This document shows positions 3,487 through 60,907 of a DNA stretch of 64,000 nt, piece by piece. The notes below the pieces were generated by a model, which saw only the letters and a list, made by a program, of their open reading frames with translations, did not search any database and was not told the DNA's origin. Made by a program: the position numbers and the translations under genes. Within the stretch, counting starts at the first letter, position 1. Every line of letters starts with the position of its first letter. The stretch is from Ochotona curzoniae (lineage: Eukaryota > Chordata > Mammalia > Lagomorpha > Ochotonidae): NCBI RefSeq assembly GCF_017591425.1, contig NW_024467083.1, positions 15,615,001 through 15,679,000 of the forward strand, in the 5' to 3' direction.

Positions 3487-3826
3487 GACTATAGCAGGTT
3501 AAGCCTCTACTGTGGCACTGGCATCCTATACAGCTGTCAGTTTGAGTCTAATCTGCTTCACTTCTGACCCAGCTCCCTGCTGATGTACCTAGGAAATTAG
3601 AAGAGAACTGTCCAAACTTTTGAACCACTGCACATGCATGGCTGATTTGGAAGAAGCTCCTGGCTGCTTGCTTTGAACTGGCCCAAGTCCTGACTCTTGC
3701 AGCCATTTGGAGAGGAAATAGCATATGGAAGATTCATTCATATCCTCTCTCACTCTCTTTCTCTCTCTCTCTCTTTCACCTTCTCTCTCTGTAATTCTAC
3801 CTTTCAAATAAAAATAAATAAAATAT
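3487..3826 (+). mobile_element. CSINE copy
   Basis: The sense layout is complete: head (ggactatagcaggttaagcc), cagtttgagtctaatctg, gacccagctccctgctgat, gaagaagctcctggctgctt-like block, a CT-rich stretch near 3750-3790, then ctacctttcaaataaaaat. It lies immediately downstream of the preceding SINE in the same direction. Confidence 0.85.
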
Positions 3827-3874
3827 GACTAAGAAAATTAATTGCAGTAAAATAGCTCATAAGAAAATTACATC

Positions 3875-4180
3875 ACAGGCCTGGCACAGTGGTCTAGGAG
3901 CTAAAGTCCTCGCCTTGAACACGCCAGGATCCCATATGGGTGCCAGTTCTAATTCCAGTAGTCCTGCTTCCCATCCAGCTCCCTGCTTGTGGCCTGGGAA
4001 AACAGTTGAGGACAGCCCAAAGCCTTAGGACCCTGCACCTGTGTGGGAGACCCAAAGGAGGCTCTTGGCTCCTGGCTTTGGAGAGGTAGAGCTACAGCCA
4101 TTGCCATCACTTAAGGAGTGAATCATCGGACGAAGATTTTCTTCTCTGTCTCTCCTCCTCTCTGTATATCTGACTCCCGG
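3875..4180 (+). mobile_element. CSINE with pentanucleotide-expanded tail
   Basis: A pika-type head (ggcctggcacagtggtctag), ttctaattccag and the ccctgcttgtggcctgggaa block are present. The body ends at ctctctgtatatctgact, where the usual ttccaataaa is replaced by cccgg and an AAGGG array. Similar flanks (attacatcac before, aatcacatcag after the tail) suggest a target duplication. Confidence 0.85.
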
Positions 4181-4240
4181 AAGGGAAGGGAAGGGAAGGG
4201 AAGGGAAGGGAAGGGAAGGGAAGGGAAGGGAAGGGAAGGG
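4181..4240 (+). repeat. (AAGGG)12 pentanucleotide microsatellite
   Basis: Twelve uninterrupted AAGGG units are visible, followed by aagaaagaaag. It occupies the position of the 3' tail of the preceding SINE. The perfect array suggests recent expansion. The G-triplets on this strand could support G-quadruplex or triplex structure; that is inference. Confidence 0.95.
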
Positions 4241-4264
4241 AAGAAAGAAAGACAATCACATCAG

Positions 4265-5567
4265 TGAGGGCACCAGGTCCACGAATCCCGGAGGCGGGTG
4301 TTCCAGTGGAGCCCGGGTCACATGGTCTGGGTCCTTCGCCCTGCCTGCATGGTGGGTGCCAGGCACATGAGCCTCTGGGGCTGGGGATCCGGTGGGGCAC
4401 AGGTCTCCTGGCCCAATTCCTTGGGCCCATCTGTGTGGTGGATGTCAGTTCTGTGAGCCCTAGGGATTGCGGGGTCTAGCAGGGTCCAGGTCCCCTCATC
4501 TGGGTCCTTGGGCCTGCCTGCATGGTGGGTACTGGATCTGAGAGCTCCAAGGCCAGAAGGGTCTTTGGGGCCTGGATCACATAGTCTGGGTCCTTGAACA
4601 TGCCTGAGTGATGAGTGCCAGGTCTTCAAGCCCCTGGGGCAGGAGATCCGGCAGGGTCTGAATCACCAGGCTCAAGTCCTTGGGCTCACCTATGAGAACT
4701 GGTCCTCCTTGGTGGAAAAGATGGAGTAGTGGATGGCTGGCACAGATCCACACAGACGACATGGCAGTCCATTCGGGGCCTTCAAAAACATCCATTACCA
4801 TAGCAGAGAAAGGATAATGGAACAGATTGGACAACTAAACCAGCCCAAATATGACAGCAAACATCTGGGCTAATAGAAATTCTAAGGTGGAAATAAAAAG
4901 TATTCCCTTGTTCCTGGCATGATAGCTAGTGGCTATAAGTTCTCACCTTGTATGCGCCAGGATCCCATATGGGTGCTGATTTTAACCTTGGCAGCTCCAT
5001 TTCCCATCCAGCTTCTTGCTTGTGGCCTGGGAAGGCAGTCAAGAACAGCCCAAATCCTTGGGACCCTGCACCCGTGTGGGAGAACCAGAAGAGGCTCCTG
5101 GCTCCTGGCTTGGGATTGGCTCAGCTCCAGCCATTGCAGCCACTTGGGAGTGAATCAACAGATGGAAAATCTTCCTCTGTCTCTTCTCCTCTCTGTATAT
5201 CTGACTTTCCAATAAAAATAAATCTTTTTTTTAAAAAAAAAGTATTCCCTCATCTTTGGATCAGTAAGATCCATAACATTTCAAAACTATTGAAACCACC
5301 TGGGCAGAACCCAAGAAGCGTACATCACATCAGGACTCTGGGTCAATTTTGGGTAGCTCTTCCCCATCGCCAGGTACACAGGTGGTTGGGAGTCTGGTTG
5401 GCTTCTCCCCTGGTCTACCCGCTCCCCCCAGACACAGGGAAAAGAAATGGAAAACTTGGAAACAATAATCACACCCACTTTTACCTGACCTTCGATCCTT
5501 CCTACCCTGACACCCTGATTAATTATGCAAGCATCATCAAAATTAAAAATTGAAAAAAAAGAACAAA
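4265..5567 (+). mobile_element. Array-bearing retroelement, copy 1
   Basis: The left part (about 4265-4700) holds at least four degenerate GC-rich units spaced about 86 bp apart, each with a block like gcctgcatggtgggtgccag. A non-repetitive 3' domain follows, marked by ggatcagtaagatc, aaaactattgaaaccacc and agacacagggaaaag, then an A-rich tail (about 5543-5567). A perfect 11-bp duplication, aatcacatcag, brackets the element at 4254-4264 and 5568-5578. This is the hallmark of LINE-type, A-tailed retrotransposition with 5' truncation. No ORF1 or ORF2 motif is present. It may be the 3' untranslated part of a lagomorph LINE-1 or a composite non-autonomous element. A SINE interrupts it. Confidence 0.7.
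4911..5236 (+). mobile_element. CSINE inserted in array element copy 1
   Basis: The complete sense copy ends ccaataaaaataaatc plus an A-tail. Near-perfect duplications of aaaaagtattccct flank it (about 4896-4910 and 5237-5251), so it is younger than the host element. Confidence 0.92.
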
Positions 5568-5581
5568 AATCACATCAGACA

Positions 5582-6689: not shown

Positions 6690-9600
6690 GACCTGGAAGA
6701 TAGCACCTGTGGGGGTGTATGGCAATGTGGGGGCTCACTTCTAGGCAGGCGGGACATGCCTGGGGATTGCCCCACATGCTTGGTCCTGGACAATGTGAGG
6801 AGAGGAGAGGGGAGGGGTTAGCACACTGGCCTGGTGTGCTGGTGGACCAGGTATGGGGAACTTTAAATGGGCACGGAACTTGAATATACAGAAGCATATG
6901 TCTCAGGCCAGTCCACATGCCAGGAACTTTGGACCCTAGCAGCAGGCAGAGCTTCAGGCCAGCACACCACCCTACTGGAAGACTGCGCTTCAGAATTCTG
7001 CGCTGGGGAGCCCATATGCTCCCAGACATGGGGTCTGTGCACTGATCAGGGAAGGCTATAAGGAAATGTGTGGGAAAGAGAACCATTGAGAACCTGTATG
7101 CTGCGGCTGAGGAGTAACTTCTGAGGTTCTTCCATCAATAAGGCCACTGTACTTGTAGATAAACCAGGCAGTGGTGGGGGCTGAGACAGAGTGGTTGGGA
7201 GAGGGAGAGGCTGGAGAAACTCTATGGGTCCAACCAATGCACCAGCCTCCATGGTAGAGCTGAGCTGGGCTAGTGAGCATGGATCACTGCCGACCACCAC
7301 TCACGGGTGCACACTGAAGCTAGGGCTGGGGACTGCCCGGCAGGAATAGATCACAGTACGTGCTAGTGAGAGTCAGAACGGGGATGGGTAATGATAGGCT
7401 GGGCCATGGTACTAACCAGCACATGAGAGAACCAGGCCTGAGGGCAGATCCTGTGGGACATATATGGGCCCACTCCTATGGATTACAATTTCCATGGTTT
7501 TCTTAAGAGCTGGGGCAGTGATGGGGGCTACAGCACCCGCAGGCACATCCAAGAATAGGATGTGGGTTAGCCAGGCCACAACATCTAGCAGTTCATACAA
7601 GGGCCAGAATGGAGAAAATAGACTATGCCGGGTAAGGGTCTAACATCCACTGGCATATGTGAGATCTGGGTTTGGGAGTGGGTCTGGAAAGTGTGGGCTG
7701 GTTCTGGAGGAGGGTGTTACAAGCAGGGCCAAATCAACCTTAGCTTATTGGCATGTGCAGAAACCAGACTAGAGTACAGCACATGCCAAGCTAGGTTATC
7801 ACACCTACCAGTTTGCATGAGTCAAGGATGAGAGCAGACTGGATGGGAGAAGACTGGACAGGGCAAGGCTGCAGCACCCACCAGTGAATGTTGGTAGGAG
7901 TAGGCTGGACCAGGCCAGGCTGCAGCATCCAATGGCAAAGGCCAAGATAGGGGATAGGATAACCGGACTGTCAGAGCAACCACTGGCACATGCAAGATCT
8001 CTGGCTTGGAACAGACCTCGCTGGGGAACTAACGGGATGCCTCTGCTGGGTTGTGGTTCCCACTGGTGAGCATGAGAGCTGGAATGGGGCAGAGTGTGTG
8101 GATGGAGGGATGATCAGGGCTGGACATGACTGCAGTATCCCTTGGCATGGATATAGATTAGGTCTGGGATGTGCCAGACTGGGCTAGACTCCAATACCCA
8201 CTGGTGCTCATGAGAGCCAGGGTGGGTGTAGGGCAGACTGGGCTAGATCACAGTATCTGCTGAACCACATAACAACTGTGTCTGGGTGTGAATCAGTTGG
8301 GCTATAGCACCCAACCGTAAGAACTGTGTCTGGGTGTGGCCCAGATGGGCAAGGCCACTGTTCCTGTCCAAACAGAAAGTGGTCTAAGTCAGCCTGAGCC
8401 AAGGACCCTCACTAGTGTCCAAGATCTGCCACTGGGAGAAAACCTAATACTGGAGCTTGGGAATTCCTTTGTCAGGTCTCGGTCCTTGCAGGTGAGCACA
8501 AGAACTGAGGCTGGGAGAAGCCCACACCATGCCAGGTTACATAAGCATAAGTGTGGCTCAGGTCTGGGGCAAACCACACTGGGCCAGTTCATAATACCTA
8601 CTGGCAGATCTGAGAACCAGGAAAAAGTGTAAGACAGGCACAGTCAGGCTGGCCAGGACTGGGAGCTGGCTTGGCTGAACCAAGCTACAGAACCTTCCAG
8701 CAAATGCCAAGGTGTGATGGGCCATGCCAGATTGGGTTACAGAAACCACCAGCACACACATGAGACCTGAGGAGGGGGGCAGTGAAAGCATGAAGGGGTC
8801 TGTGGGGGGGGGATCCCCTGCTGGGCCACTGCTCCCACTGGTGAGTGTGAAAACTGGACCTGGGAGCAGACCAGACAAGGCAAGGCTGCAACACCTGCTG
8901 GCTTGCATGTGAGCTGAGTTAGGGAGAAAACCAGGCTGGGCTAAACAAATGTATCTACTGCTAGGGGCATGAAAGAGAGTAAGTGCAGCTGGTTGGGCTT
9001 TGCTGCAGCATGAGCTGGCAAGTACTGGGACTGATAGACTGTAGAACTACCTGGAGAGTGCAAGATCCAGGACAGGGAATGGGCCAAGTAGGGAAACTGT
9101 GGGCACCTCTCTGATGAGCTGCAACTCCCATTGGTGAGCATAAGAACCAGGAATGGGCACAGCCTGGCTAGACAGGTGGTGGCACCTGCCAGCATGTATG
9201 TGAGCTGGATAGCGGGATCAGTTGGGTTGAGCTAGGCTTCAGCACCCATTGAGGTATACGAGAGTTGAATGGGATACAGGATAGACTGGACCAGTCTGCT
9301 ATGCATACTGGCAAGCATGGGAACCACAGCTGGGCCTAGCGGGGACTACTGGGGGTTGCTCTGAGTAGGCTGAAGTTGCTGCTGTTGTACATTAGGGCCA
9401 AGTGTGTGGTGAGCAGCGTTGGGCTGGGCCGCAGCATCCATTGGTCTATGTAAGAAACGGCACTGGATCTGTTGAACTATCAAAACCACTTGAGCAAGAC
9501 CCTCGGAGCATGCCCCACATCAGGGACCTGGGATGGGTGAGAGACTGGGTGGGGCTTCTCCCTTTATCTCCCCCTGTAATCCAGATACAGAAAAAAAAAT

Positions 9601-9812
9601 GTGGAAATAATAGTCTTACCCTCTTTCCTGTAGCCCTTGAACCTTTGTGCCCCAATTAAGTATGTAAAGATTTTCAACAAAAAAGAAAGAGAGAGAGAGA
9701 CGGCACTGGAAATAGAACTGACCCAGTAATTGCAACTACCAGTGTGTGTGTAGGCTGATTTGGGTGATGGACTGAGCCAGACCCTGTACTGGCAAGCAGA
9801 CAAAAGAGTCAG
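6690..9812 (+). repeat. Array-bearing retroelement, copy 2 (long tandem array)
   Basis: About 3 kb of GC-rich degenerate tandem units recur at irregular spacings of roughly 50-80 bp. A typical unit contains a core like gctgcagcacccactggtga, then catgagagctggg and ggcagaccaggctgggc. Clear cores lie near 7869, 7921, 7975, 8055, 8135, 8195, 8250 and 8306. The 5' part (6690-7250) is less repetitive. The same unit family occurs in reverse in copies 3 and 4. Several 60-137-codon open frames inside are low-complexity by-products of GC richness and lack any recognised domain. Its own 3' end is missing: the array runs into a truncated SINE at 9815. Confidence 0.7.
9468..9696 (+). mobile_element. 5'-truncated 3' end of the array element, nested in copy 2
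   Basis: Only the unique 3' domain is present: gaactatcaaaaccacttga, ccacatcagggacctggga, ccagatacagaaaaaaaaat, cccaattaagtatgtaaag, then an A/GA-rich tail. The array unit is interrupted exactly here, with cggcactgga repeated at 9458-9467 and 9701-9710. This is therefore a separate, severely 5'-truncated insertion made with a target duplication. Confidence 0.75.
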
Positions 9813-9814
9813 GT

Positions 9815-9990
9815 ATGGAGACCTGGTGTGGTAGCCTAGTGGCTAAAGTCCTCACCTCCCACATGGGCCCTGGTGTATATTCTATCTGCTCTACTTCCCA
9901 TCCAGCTCCCTGCTTGCGGCCTGGGAAAGCAGTAAAGACTGACTCAAAGCCTTACAACCCTGCACTCATGTGAGAGACCTGGAAGAAATG
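9815..9990 (+). mobile_element. CSINE fragment lacking its 3' half
   Basis: The head (gacctggtgtggtagcctag) and middle (ccagctccctgcttgcggcc) are intact. The copy stops in the gagagacctggaagaa block and abuts the reversed 3' end of array element copy 3. The loss of the SINE tail together with the copy-3 tail points to a deletion joining the two. Confidence 0.8.
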
Positions 9991-11019
9991 AGTGAGCCGT
10001 TGTTTCCAAATTTTCTTCTTCTTCCTGTATCTGGGGGAAGGGGAGAGAGACGAGAAGAAGCTGCACCCAGCCTCCAAACTGCCTTGGGGAATGGCCACCT
10101 AATATCATCCCAGTTCCCCGATGTGGAGCATACTCTAAGGGTTCTGTTCAAGTGGTTTCAATAGTTCTGAAATGTTGATTTTGCTGATCCAGGGATGAAG
10201 AAATCCAAGGCTGAGAAAATCTTCCCAAACTGTGCTGGTTGATAATGTCCACCTTTGTACAGCCACAGACCCAGAAACATGCTAGGAGAATTATCCAACC
10301 TGTCCTGATTTCTATCCTCTCACAAAGCCATTAAGGTCTCCTACTGGCCTAGATGAGCTGGATGTCATGCCTTCTATGTTCATTTGGACATGCTATCCAC
10401 TGTACAGGCATCGGCAACGGAGGAGGCTCAGTTCCTATACATGCACTCCAAGATTCTATCACACATCCTGTCATCGTCTCTATGACCAGGGTCTAAGTCC
10501 AGTGGACTAGTTCAGGAGTACCCCAAGAAACCTGGGGTGACCTCAGACTTGACTCTTAACATGTGCCAGCCAGTGCAGGATCAAGTTCAATCTGTCACCT
10601 GCACCACCCAACAAACATATCAGTGGATACAGCTGCCTGATCAGTTCTGCCTCAGACCCACAACAAACATGAGTTGGTTTGTTCAATCCATCCGCTCAAT
10701 CCATCCAGCCCCCCACAGACCCAGTCTTCACACTCACCAATGGGTCCTGTGGCCTAGTTCGGGCTACCTCCAAAACCCCCACCAGGCCAGCCCTCAGCTT
10801 CGAGCTTTGCACGTGCCTGCCTCTGCTGTAGTCTAGCCTGACCCAGCCCAATCTCTATGGCTGTCACACACACCATGGGTGATATAGCTTAGCTCAGCCT
10901 GATTCACCCCCAGACCCAGCCCTCACATATGCCAGCACGTGCCAGTACTTTGTCTAGCCTCACCTCTTCCCAGCCCTTATTCTTGTGCTAACCAGTGATA
11001 GGTAAAACTTAGCAGGAGA

Positions 11020-11538
11020 GGGCCCAGCACAATAGCGTAGTGGTAAGTAAGTAAGTCCTCGCCTTACATGCGCCAGCCATAGCAGCCGCTTGGGGAGTGA
11101 ATCACCAGACAGAAGATCTTCCTCTCTGTCTCTCCTCTCTGTATATCCGCCTTTCCAATAAAAAATAATAAAAATAAATCTTTTAAAAAAAAGATTTATT
11201 TATTTTTATTGGAAAGATGGATATACAGACAGGAGGAGAGACAGAGAGGAAGATCTTCCGTCCGATGATTCACTCCCCAAGTGAACGCAATGGGCCGATA
11301 CTATGCCGATCCAAACCCAGGAGCCTCTTCTGGGTCTCCCACGCGGGTGCAGGTTCCCAAAGCTTTGGGCCGTCCTCGACTGCTTTCCCGGGCCACAGGC
11401 AGGGAGCTAGAAGGGAAGCGGGGCTGCCGGGATTAGAACCGGCGACCATATGGGATCCCGGGCGTGCAAGGCGAGGACCTTTAACCACTTGCGCCACCGC
11501 GCCGGGCCCAAAATAAATAAATCTTTAAAAAAAATACC
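11020..11538 (+). mobile_element. CSINE with internal deletion, host of a second SINE
   Basis: The head (ggcccagcacaatagcgtag) runs directly from catgcgccagcc into agccgcttggggagtgaatc, so about 150 bp of the body is deleted. The tail (ataaaaataaatc) is split by a reversed SINE and resumes at 11510. The whole unit is bracketed by tagcaggaga at 11010-11019 and 11539-11548. Confidence 0.85.
11191..11509 (-). mobile_element. Young-subfamily CSINE, nested in a SINE tail
   Basis: This is a full-length reverse copy ending in gggccc at 11504-11509. It sits between two copies of an aaaataaatcttt-like tail sequence (about 11171-11185 and 11510-11526), which is the duplicated target. By eye it is about 95 percent identical to the SINE at 29954-30284. 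It shares the diagnostic block tttggatcggcatagtatcg, absent from all other copies here. Confidence 0.92.
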
Positions 11539-13160
11539 TAGCAGGAGAATGCCCATAGTTTTCATATCAGACATATTCTCAGCCCTTGATCTTGTGCCTG
11601 CCAGGGGTACTGCATTGCAGCCTGACATGACTTACTCTCAGTCCTGGCACTTGCTAACCAATACTGCAACCTATCCCTGCTTGCCTATACTCACTGTAGC
11701 TCTCATATATGTCAAGGGATATGGAAGCCTAGCTCAGCCTGGCCCACTTCCAAACCACCCTGCCCCTGTTCCAGCTTGCATGCTCACTAGCAGAAGTACC
11801 AGCCCAGCAAGGGAGTCTCTGAAGTTCTACTCCTAGGCCTGCTCCCAGCCCCAGGGCCTTGAATATGCCAGCAGGTGCTGTGGCTCAGTCTGAAATGGCC
11901 TTCTCCCAGTCTCAGCATTCACCAACAAGGTGTTACAGCCTGGTTCAGTGCAGGCTACCCCCAGTCTAAGCTCTTGCAGGCAAGTGCAGTAGCCCAGTTC
12001 AGCCTGGCCCACCCTCAGCCCCCATGTGAACTGGTGGGTGTTGCAGTTCAGCCAGGCCTAGCCTACATCCTGTCCTGGCTTTTGCTCATGCCAGCACATG
12101 CTATGAATTGACCCCGTCCAGCCTGACCCAGCCGTGGCTCATACATATGCCAGCAGGTGATGCAGGAAAACCTGGTCTAGCCTGCTCCCAGCCCTGGCTC
12201 TTGTGCTCAGTGGGAGCTGTGCCTAGCCAGAGTGTTCCCCTATTAGGCCCACTCCCAGCAACAGAACTCACATGTGCCAGTGACTATTGCTATCCAAACT
12301 GACATGGCCAACACAAACATGAGTAAGTGCTGCAGCCTGGCCTGGCCTGGCCTGGCCTGGCCACCCCCAACCTCCACTCTTGCTTCCCTGTGGGAGCTGC
12401 AGCCTAGTAGGGAAAGTCTCAAAGTTCCCTTACTAGTCCTGGATCTCATGCATACCAGCTGGGACAGGAGCCCTACCTGGCATGGTCTGCCCTCAGCCCA
12501 GACACTTTCATGTGTTGGTAGGTGCTGCTGCCTGGCCCCACCTGGCCTCCTCTCAGCCCCGGCTCTCTTGAGTGTCATGTTGGTTCGTGTCTGGCGACAT
12601 GTCAGCCTTGCTCGGCCAATCAGTATCCTCAGCTCTCTGCACAAATCAATGGATGCTACAGTTCACAGAAGAGAACCCACCAAGTCCCCTGCAGAATCTG
12701 TCCCCAGATCTGGTTTTCTCACATTCTGCTGGACACTGCAGCCCAGAATGACATTGCCCACTCCCTGCTCTAACACTAGTGGGTGGCTACTATGGCCTAG
12801 TCCACACAGGCATGTCCCCAGTACCCAGCTATTGCATGCTCCCTAACACCAGTTTTTGCATTCACCAGCAGGCAGCAGGTGATGTTATTTAGCCCAGCCC
12901 AGATCTCCCTGGCCCAGAATTGCCCTCAGGTTTCCCCTACTCTAAACCACTCCATCTCAGCTCCCTCACCTACCTGTAAGTGCAGTGCTCTGATCTGTGG
13001 AAGACTCCAGAAGTTATTCTCTCCATGCCAAATGTGACCTCAGCTGCTCCCAATCCAATACATCCTCAGACCCTTTCCCTGGCCAATCTGCAATCATCCC
13101 CATCCCCTCCTGGAGACTGGTGTGACATGTTTGGCCTGGAGTTGCCTATCTACCTTCCCC

Positions 13161-26282: not shown

Positions 26283-28870
26283 TCAAAAATTAATTTTAAA
26301 TAATTTTCAATATTATTTACATAGTTGAGAGGGATGCATGCTCATGTGGGCCTCCAATTAGTATGGGGAGGGTCAAGGCATGGGGAAAGCTTGGTTGGAC
26401 AAATGCTTTCAGTTCTTTTCTTGTCACTGTCCTGACATGCAAGAGAGGCAGAGGGGGAGACCGCTCTTTGTTGTCAAACTACATCAGTACCTAGGATGGG
26501 GGACAGTCATTTAATGATGCCTTAGAGACTGTGACATGGGCAAGAATGCTCTAAGGGTATCACATGAATGGTTCAGATAGTTCTGAGACATTTTCACCTT
26601 CATTGCACGAGGGTTAAGCGAATCATTATAAGGTCTATTGGCTGATCAAGTCAACCTCAGTGTGCATGCATAGACCCAGACACTTGCTGCAAAGCTTGTT
26701 CAGGGGAGTTATTCAACCTGTTCTTTCCACCCTCTGATGAAGAACTCGATATCCTCTGATGACCTACAATGAGCTGGCTGTCATGTCTTCCATCTGCATC
26801 TGGGCATGCTATCCACTGCACAGGCATCAGTAACTGAGAATTCCCAGTCCAATACATGCACTCCAAACCATGTATCTTGTGATTTTCCCTATGGCCAGGA
26901 TTTGAGTCCAGTCATTTAAATAGGAAGCCCCGGCCCCCCAAGAAATCTCACATAGGGTGACCTCAGACTTGATTCTTATGTGTACCAGCCAATGCATTGC
27001 TAGGTTCAGTTCATTACCTGCACCAGTCAACACACCTACTGGTGGATACATCTGCCCAGTCATTCTGTCCCAGCCCCATTTCACATAAACTCATGGGTGC
27101 TGCAGCCCAGCATAGCACAGCACAGCCTATCAAAGACCAGTCCTCACCTGGTCCTAGCAGGTGCTGGAGTCTCAACAGGGTGACCCCCAATTACCTCCCT
27201 AGGTCTACCCACAGCCCCAGATATTGACATGTGCCAGCCTCTACGGTGGCCTAGCCTGTCCCAGCACATATCCCAACAGCTCTCATGTATACCCATGGAT
27301 GCTGCTGCTTAGCTCAGTCTAACCCACCCCCAGATCAGGCCCACACACATGTCAATGGGTGCTGCTGCCTTGACCAGTTCAGCCCATCCCCAGCCCTGGC
27401 TCTTATGCTCACAGTGGGAGATGCAGCCCAGCAGTGGAGTGTTCACACAGTTCTTCTATCAGACCTGTTTCCAGCCCCAGATCTTGCACCTGCCAGAGGG
27501 CACTGGAGACGAGCCTGACCTGACATAAACCCAGTCCTAGCACTTGTCAGTTGTTGCTATGGACTGCATAACTGGTTGGCCTGCACTCATTCTGGCTTTT
27601 ATATGCACCAGTGGAAATGACAACCTAGCCCAGGCTGGCTGGCCCACAGACCCAGCCCAAATGCCAACTGATGGGTTCTGCAGCCCTGCCCAGACAGGTC
27701 TACCCTCAATCTCAACTTTTCACATTCACCCATGGAAGTAGTGGTACAGGAGGGGATTTCCCAAGGCTCCCTCACCAAGGCCTGCTCTCAGCCCCAGGTC
27801 TTGTGCAAGCCAGCAGGTACTGTGGCCCAGTGTGAGATGACCCACCCCAAGTCTTGGCATTTGCCAACAGGTGTTGCTGCCCAGCTCAGCCTAGCCCATT
27901 CTTAATCCCAGCTCTTATCAACAGGTACACCAGCCTAGCCCATTCCCAGTACTAGCCCTCATGTGAACTGGCAGATGTGTGGCCCAACCTGGTGCAGCTT
28001 ACACCCTATCCTGGTTCTTGCTCATGACAATATGTACTGTGGACTGGCACATCCTAATCTACCCTCAGGCCTGGCCCACACCTACGCTGATGGGTGCTGC
28101 AGCCAAGCCTGGCCTAGCTCTCAAGCTCACCAACAGGGTGTCCTTGGTCCAGAAAGGAAGTTCCCCAAGTTCCCCTACCAAGCCTGCTCCCAGCCCTGGA
28201 TTTCATGAGTGCTAGAATATGCTGTTTGCCGAACATGGCTAGCTCCAAGTCCTGGCATGCACCAGTGGGTATTACCGCCTAGCCCAAGTGACCTACACCC
28301 AATCGTACCTGTCCCCAGACCCAGTCCACACACAAGGGGTGCTGAAGCTTTGCTCAGCCTGGTCTGCCCCCAACCCTGGCTCTGATATAAACTGGTGGCT
28401 GCCTAGCCTGGCATTGCCAATACTACATCCTGGCTCCCATCTAAACCAGTGTATAGTACAACCAAGCCAAGACCAGTCTGTACCCCAGATCTCACTCTTG
28501 CATTCACCAATGGGAATCACAGTATAGAAGAGGAATCCCAAAAGTTCTCTTACCAGGTCCACTCCCATCCCTCGATCTCATATGTACCAGCAAATGCCAC
28601 AGCCCTGCTTGGCATGGTCTGTCTTCAGTCCTGGTCTTTATATGTACCAGTGGGTGCTGCAACCTGGCTCACCCAGGCTTTTCCCAGTCCCTACTCCTAT
28701 GAGTGTTAGGTAAGTTCTTGTAAGGTGAATTCCATGATCAAGCATGCCTCGGCCTGGCACCACCCCTAGATCTCATGTAAACCAGAGGTGGTGCAATCCT
28801 ACAGAGGCAAACCCACAAGTACCCTACAGAATCTCCCCTCAATCTGGTTTTCTGGTCTTTCATATGAGCC
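26283..28870 (-). mobile_element. Array-bearing retroelement, copy 4
   Basis: Read on the minus strand, the A-rich end lies at 26283-26320 and the 3' domain at 26320-27000. The latter matches copy 3: compare gaatgctctaagggtatcac here with gcatactctaagggttctgt at 10127, and the shared gggtgacctcagacttgatt. From about 27000 to 28860 is the tandem array (units such as accagtgggtgctgcaacct and atgggtgctgcagcccagc). Near 28830 it matches the outer end of copy 3 (tctgtccccagatctggttt versus tctcccctcaatctggtttt). No LINE coding sequence follows, so both copies end in the same zone without reaching an ORF. Confidence 0.66.
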
Positions 28871-34399: not shown

Positions 34400-34490
34400 A
34401 GGTGGCGTATAAAATTCTGTAATCCTAATAATCTCCCAGGTAGTGCTGATGTGATTATCTGGAGGCCAATACTGTGAGGAAGAATAGACC
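34400..34490 (+). mobile_element. MER5-like hAT DNA transposon fragment
   Basis: The phrases ctgtaatcctaataatctcc, caggtagtgctgatgtgatt and ggaggccaatactgtgag match the right half of the mammalian MER5 element (recalled as noncoding hAT-Charlie). Only part of the element is present. Confidence 0.6.
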
Positions 34491-60514: not shown

Positions 60515-60625
60515 TTTTATTATATTTATTTTTGATGATAGTTGATTAGGGTGATATGGGTCAAAGGCTACAAGAAGGTGGGTGAGATCACCATTTTCAC
60601 ATTTTCTCTCTTTTTTCCCTTCCTA
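60515..60625 (-). mobile_element. Severely 5'-truncated 3' end of the array element
   Basis: The phrase gtgatatgggtcaaaggcta, followed by accattttcacattttctct, matches the reverse of the 3' terminus at 9580-9690 (ggcacaaaggttcaagggct, then tttccacatttttttt). Only about 110 bp is present, as expected for target-primed reverse transcription that stopped early. Confidence 0.65.
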
Positions 60626-60907
60626 TAGAAAGGAACATTCTGATTCATTCTTGTCTGTCTAATTTCCTGAAGGAAAGTCCTTTAAAATGGAGTTATTTGT
60701 ATGTGTATTTTCAAAGGACTTTGATGAAACACCTAGTTGCTATTCTAGAAGGAAATTTGAACTTATATCACCGCAGTGTAGAATCTTCTTTCCAATGCCT
60801 TCCATAAATGGGTATTATCAGTCATGTTACTTATCATATGTGGAGAAAAATCATAATGTTCTTTTGAATCTATTTGGTTGGGAAGATAGGTTAGAGAAAG
60901 CCTTCTT
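60626..60907. other. Intergenic stretch
   Basis: A 79-codon frame (60687-60926) overlaps the start of the next SINE and has no recognised motif. Confidence 0.45.

Follow-up and report, generated by a model that had tools for sequence, protein, structure and literature searches.

A 5'-truncated, array-bearing copy of an apparently extinct, non-coding retroelement family in Ochotona curzoniae, most likely copied by LINE-1 in trans

The window analysed here, a 64,000-nt stretch of the Ochotona curzoniae genome (contig NW_024467083.1, positions 15,615,001 to 15,679,000), contains a retroelement insertion, hereafter copy 1, together with neighbouring SINEs and further members of the same family (Table 1). 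The original prediction was of an A-tailed insertion at 4265-5567 bracketed by an exact 11-bp duplication, and both copies of the duplication and the tail were found. The 11-mer, AATCACATCAG, occurs at two places on the + strand of the window, 4254-4264 and 5568-5578, and its reverse complement lies at 34446 and 54108. As a chance control, 4,986 pairs of stretches as long as the flanks were drawn at random, and 5 of them shared an exact match of at least 11 bases. Analyses of the internal sequence bore out the degenerate 86-bp tandem units that had also been predicted. Gapless self-comparison of the array at a period of 86 gave an identity of 0.507, and at three units (259) one of 0.645, compared with at most 0.416 in 300 dinucleotide shuffles, and a unit profile, built partly from copy 1's own units, found five units at 4266-4693. 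TRF at its default threshold did not report this array. Three features had gone unmentioned in the prediction: a nested SINE (4909-5236), a near copy of the 11-mer at 3866, and the 5' truncation described below. Since the nested SINE and the second copy of its 14-bp duplication must be subtracted, the element itself amounts to 961 bp. The 3' domain of copy 1 (window 5400-5435) and of other copies contains a conserved pyrimidine tract ending in CAG, which resembles a 3' splice site. Elsewhere in the window, a frame at 40050-41444 matches PRMT6 chains (residues 89-465, E 6e-239) and is open over the whole match.

Table 1. Positions of copy 1, its parts, the neighbouring SINE and other family members in the window
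Feature	Position	Strand	Basis or remark
Neighbouring SINE, (GGAAG)13 in tail	3879-4253	+	limits by eye; variant 11-mer precedes at 3866
Target duplication of copy 1, 5' copy, AATCACATCAG	4254-4264	+	also adjoins tail of upstream SINE
Array, five degenerate 86-bp units, GC 62%	4265-4694	+	self-identity and unit profile; 5' truncation of copy 1 falls inside
Middle segment of 3' region, common to other copies	4695-4908	+	profile match 4676-4917
First copy of nested SINE's duplication, the last 14 bp of the middle segment	4895-4908	+	exact 14 bp
Nested SINE	4909-5236	+	between exact 14-bp duplications 4895-4908 and 5237-5250
3' domain, dispersed genome-wide	5251-5549	+	profile match 5239-5549; genome search
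A-rich tail, shortly 3' of ATTAAA at 5542	5550-5567	+	read from sequence
Target duplication of copy 1, 3' copy (11 bp)	5568-5578	+	exact match
Older relative A, body then 3' domain; 86-bp units undetected	7107-9683	+	profile and BLAST
Older relative B, tail to tail with A	9976-12803	-	profile
Older relative C	26301-28814	-	profile
Relative D, 3'-end fragment	60523-60632	-	profile

The near copy of the 11-mer, AATTACATCA, stands just 5' of the upstream SINE, whose core (3894-4175) matches the SINE consensus. As this variant precedes the SINE and the tail of the SINE abuts 4254-4264, the latter stretch may belong to two insertions. One short target thus seems to have been used both by the upstream SINE and by copy 1. 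Identity to a consensus of 69 SINEs was 86.0% for the nested SINE and 81.2% for the upstream SINE, a hint that the upstream one may be the older, but the consensus is a mix of subfamilies. Family copies were seen directly 3' of SINEs at three places (L013 7034-7335, L021 7960-8241 and window 3879-4264), a pattern expected from an endonuclease that prefers A-rich targets. The dense SINEs of this genome seem C-repeat-like, as would be expected of a pika.

Searches of the window's own genome assembly (2.08 Gb) with the 3' domain (5245-5545), as the original prediction had proposed, revealed a dispersed family, of which the best 40 scored matches of 3254 candidates, copy 1 itself included, were considered. 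The first 20 of the 39 other matches were taken, each with ~8.5 kb upstream, and the five best further matches to the body of the longer copies (see below) extended this sample to 25 focal copies. Twenty of the 25 reached the start of the 3' region, and in 19 of these the 86-bp units lay directly upstream of it. The twentieth, L022, was truncated right at the start of the 3' region, with its duplication at 8492-8504, and the remaining five (L012, L015, L017, L018 and L023) were truncated inside the 3' region. The association was also found from the other side. For the array query alone (40 scored of 816 candidates), the 500 bp downstream of each of the ten best other places were read, and nine led into the 3' region; at the exception, L047, these 500 bp held only further array. 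All five body matches examined (40 scored of 9266 candidates) continued into 86-bp units and the 3' region, one of them (L038) into only the first 121 positions of the latter. The genome-wide search for arrays and 3' domains occurring apart therefore found them linked instead, in support of the idea that the array was mobilised as part of a retrotransposed unit.

The arrays themselves were less constant than their position. Between one and five 86-bp units were detected per copy, and their order was poorly kept: the last unit best matched copy 1's last unit in six of 19 copies, compared with one of 31 units other than the last, and copy 1's second unit was the more frequent best match for last units. 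This rank test of unit order gave a weak signal across copies. It took the place of a lenient local alignment for array colinearity, which was discarded because copies whose truncation lies before the array returned ~71-81% identity too. The number of units in an array may change after insertion.

Extension of the longest copies upstream had been suggested as a way of finding LINE-1 ORF2 before the array. No ORF2 was found there; a body of ~1 kb and tandem units were present instead, and the 5' ends of the copies varied. The plan of the longer copies comprised 5' units (roughly 90-115 bp), the ~1 kb body, the 86-bp array, the middle segment with the 3' domain (~540 bp) and an A-rich end. The whole body was present in L010, L013, L019 and L037-L041, and part of it in others. 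Because the longer copies carry a body and 5' units, copy 1 is a 5'-truncated copy that starts inside the 86-bp array. One longer copy, L039, measured 2,747 bp within a perfect 16-bp duplication (2205-2220 and 4968-4983) and had further tandem units 5' of its body. The longest copy begins within a tandem unit, and the true 5' end of the family may be missing from it. In L039, L013 and L040 the two halves of the 5' stretch were more alike than in any of 300 shuffles. The body was at most weakly repetitive, with one motif above shuffles in most copies and some spacings near 54-60 bp; in L013 the recurring motif was within the shuffle maximum, and BLAST self-matches in younger bodies numbered 3, 1 and 0 (controls 0). 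A stretch of L039 leading from the body to the 86-bp units (3708-4140, ~430 bp) matched no SINE, LINE-1, body, unit or sampled locus. The longest ATG-initiated ORF in L039, the one copy measured, was 133 aa. An LTR element was dismissed, as L039 was without terminal direct repeats: the similarity of its 5' 250 bp to its 3' 500 bp did not exceed that of shuffles, the score being reached by 24 of 200. In L014 a second copy of roughly the terminal 80 bp of the 3' domain lies behind the tail (9204-9284).

Older copies of the family showed a different interior. Relatives A, B and C of the window and the older copies in L009, L020 and L021 contained the body and then the 3' region, in the same order as the younger copies, and none of these six had 86-bp units at a profile threshold of 0.01. 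Two or three successive matches to one part of the body (~272-540) stood before the 3' region in all six. The bodies of A-C were mutually 58-66% alike. The 3' region of the older copy in L020 was still well matched (E 4.8e-104), so that distance alone hardly explains its missing 86-bp units. This comparison of sequences suggests that the inner array was replaced between the older and younger groups. At L009 6661-9892 a younger member (+) is apparently inserted in the body of an older member (-).

Divergence from the consensus of the 3' region ranged from 9 to 19% among 21 copies and was 16.5% for copy 1. L009, the second least diverged, had no relative above 85% identity among the best 40 scored of 9722 candidates, and for this reason the family looks extinct; it is apparently so, in that younger copies unlike L009 could escape such a search. 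Outside the focal set, the window contained four members and the 20 long loci five, nine in all over some 242 kb. Taken at face value, this density corresponds to tens of thousands of copies genome-wide, from a sample that was not random.

Evidence for the mode of movement came from the ends of the copies. Of 20 other loci, 12 had an A content of 60% or more in the 25 nt around the 3' domain end, and copy 1 is A-tailed too. Target duplications lay beside the 5' limit in five of 21 copies, compared with 14 of 420 mismatched pairs of flanks (p = 0.001). As the 5' limit of copy 1 had been set from its duplication, the test was repeated without it, giving four of 20 compared with 12 of 380 (Fisher p = 0.006). 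Duplications in other copies, such as the perfect 16 bp of L039, support retrotransposition of the array-bearing unit, as originally predicted. A looser search gave extra candidates in L013 (9 bp), L019 (10 bp), L017, L018, L020 and L012, which we did not count. The 5' limits of the copies were spread across the array, the middle segment and the 3' domain. One copy, L015, interrupts a LINE-1 ORF2, with residues 853-1059 before it and residue 1089 onward after it; the LINE-1 sequence resumes at the 3' duplication, and the upstream flank is short of some 30 bp there.

LINE-1s with an open ORF2 are present in this genome. A search for reverse transcriptase had 5629 candidates, and among the 150 of them that were scored, open frames of 1279 or 1294 aa were common. 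The RNA of the family would most likely have been copied in trans by LINE-1 proteins, presumably by target-primed reverse transcription. Such copying would account for three traits of the copies: ends rich in A, duplicated target sites and 5' truncation at differing points. LINE-1 was thus, as we infer, probably the driver of the family, and the arrays might have had a promoter or RNA role. Several observations count against this explanation. No A tail was apparent in L018 (0.40 A) or L022 (0.28 A), and under the criteria used 16 of the 21 copies had no duplication. The insertion junction of copy 1 is GAC/AATC, which we take to be a poor site for the LINE-1 endonuclease; the junctions of L039, L019 and L025 are more A-rich. 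The weakly kept unit order and the unmatched ~430 bp of L039 count against it as well. In addition, no autonomous partner with a long common 3' end was found.

To compare the family with LINE-1, we used two elements, L035 and L036, in which ORF1 (357 aa) and ORF2 (1279 or 1294 aa) are both open and the 3' UTR of ~450 bp has a G-rich tract. Aligned over 6,081 positions, the two are 96.7% alike. The 5' UTR of L036 contains three 32-bp tandem units. The UTRs of L035 matched neither the body and array parts of the family nor the window. With L035 ORF1 and ORF2 as queries, tblastn gave no match in the window at E <= 0.001, and the best E in the body and array parts was 0.12; the same search detected LINE-1 pieces in several loci. 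At the nucleotide level L035 had no match in a set of nine loci, and the L013 stretch gave just two matches to the L035 and L036 loci, both in SINEs that flank these LINE-1s. A motif scan of the loci for LINE-1 ORF2 words, a weak test, returned nothing, and exact-pattern scans of viral_contigs and genome_contigs gave no match. The one likeness was terminal. The last ~25 nt of the family resembled the LINE-1 end (14 of 2000 shuffles scored as well), a hint of an end that may be common to both. As the ORFs and UTRs of LINE-1 were unmatched, we consider the family a non-autonomous element and not the 3' UTR of these two LINE-1s. Of the two identities originally proposed, the separate composite element in the manner of VNTR-bearing elements is therefore the one supported.

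Four other explanations were weighed against these data. The family could be what is left of a LINE lineage, older or unsampled, that kept its UTRs and lost its ORFs, and so be LINE-derived though non-coding. Its terminal similarity to LINE-1 fits this idea, as do the GC-rich 5' tandem monomers, which recall the 5' UTRs of mouse L1; the 5' UTR, ORFs and 3' UTR of the tested LINE-1s were nevertheless unmatched, and we regard such an origin as unlikely. We hold much the same opinion, with marginally less favour, of the idea that a single long non-coding RNA of the host was retroposed many times, which would have left processed pseudogenes and no self-perpetuating family. The lack of a long ORF in L039, the A-rich ends and the target duplications would all be expected of such pseudogenes, but the thousands of candidates, and the contrast in repeats at one place between an older and a younger group, suggest successive source copies. 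The other identity originally proposed, in which a LINE-1 of this genome would have the array and 3' domain as its 3' UTR, is very improbable. The A-rich tail, the LINE-1-like last ~25 nt and a weak BLAST match of copy 1 to L036 (42 nt at the tail only, E 0.007) speak for it; yet apart from that tail the L035/L036 3' UTR was unmatched, even as the L035 3' UTR query detected two places in the loci, L024 (77%) and L020 (74%), that we read as LINE-1 copies, and the L035 ORFs lacked the matches noted above. Both 3' UTR and 5' UTR identity were accordingly rejected for the two LINE-1s tested. Growth of copy 1's array in place after insertion can hardly be entertained, for the variable unit number and poorly kept order that might suggest it are outweighed by the occurrence of the array at one position in every copy that reaches it, save the one truncated there.

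We conclude, with a probability of roughly 0.83, that copy 1, truncated at its 5' end and interrupted by a SINE, belongs to an abundant, non-coding and apparently extinct family of non-LTR elements whose RNA LINE-1 most likely copied in trans. A broader proposal can be made only tentatively, and we consider it somewhat doubtful: lagomorphs would have independently evolved VNTR composites, with 5' monomers, a weakly repetitive body, an inner array and a retained 3' domain, that were long-lived enough to swap arrays. The swap of repeats beside a retained 3' domain would suggest that such LINE-1 parasites need an array rather than its particular sequence. With different repeats at one position in its two age groups, the family would allow the role of tandem arrays in LINE-1-driven elements to be examined. 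Should Dfam or Repbase already list the sequence, the architecture and the replacement of the array would still be new.

The family has points in common with several known systems. Like the SINEs of this genome, its members are non-autonomous inserts with duplications, and they differ from SINEs in being much longer. Target duplications and variable 5' truncation are features of LINE-1 that are also found in the family, and with the LINE-1 of this genome it further shares the A-rich tail and the last ~25 nt; unlike that LINE-1, it has no detectable ORF1, ORF2, 5' UTR or G-rich 3' UTR. Mouse L1 elements have 5' tandem monomers, and their copies start within a monomer, as do those of the family. 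The family differs from mouse L1 in having no coding part after the monomers and in having a further, internal array.

The closest parallel seems to be with SVA and LAVA, whose known 3' domains are the HERV-K SINE-R or AluSz/L1ME, and of which the family would be an analogue by architecture rather than by sequence comparison. PMC4432496 describes SVA, LAVA, PVA and FVA as non-autonomous VNTR composites, mobilised in trans by LINE-1 and specific to hominoid primates. SVA has units of 30-50 bp and a 5' CT-hexamer/Alu-like region (PMC4432496). No two adjacent CCCTCT hexamers occurred in L039, L013 or copy 1, from which the true 5' end may be missing. The same limit applies to an Rfam search of L010, L013 and L019, a weak test that also missed the SINEs there: it gave no match to SRP RNA and, at E <= 1, no tRNA, 7SL or 5S. 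Four other matches at E <= 1 were all below gathering scores, and one of them, Phe_leader on the opposite strand of L019 (E 0.49), overlaps the body and was taken as chance. No lagomorph VNTR element was found among the literature matches listed. The family resembles these composites in being non-coding, in its target duplications, in GC-rich arrays tied to a distinct 3' domain, in array units that differ between subfamilies and in its LINE-1 driver, which is our inference here; it is unlike SVA in the length of its units, 86 bp and roughly 90-115 bp compared with 30-50 bp. If our proposal is correct, the family would add to the VNTR composites, hominoid-specific according to PMC4432496, another case from a distant mammal that seems unrelated to them.
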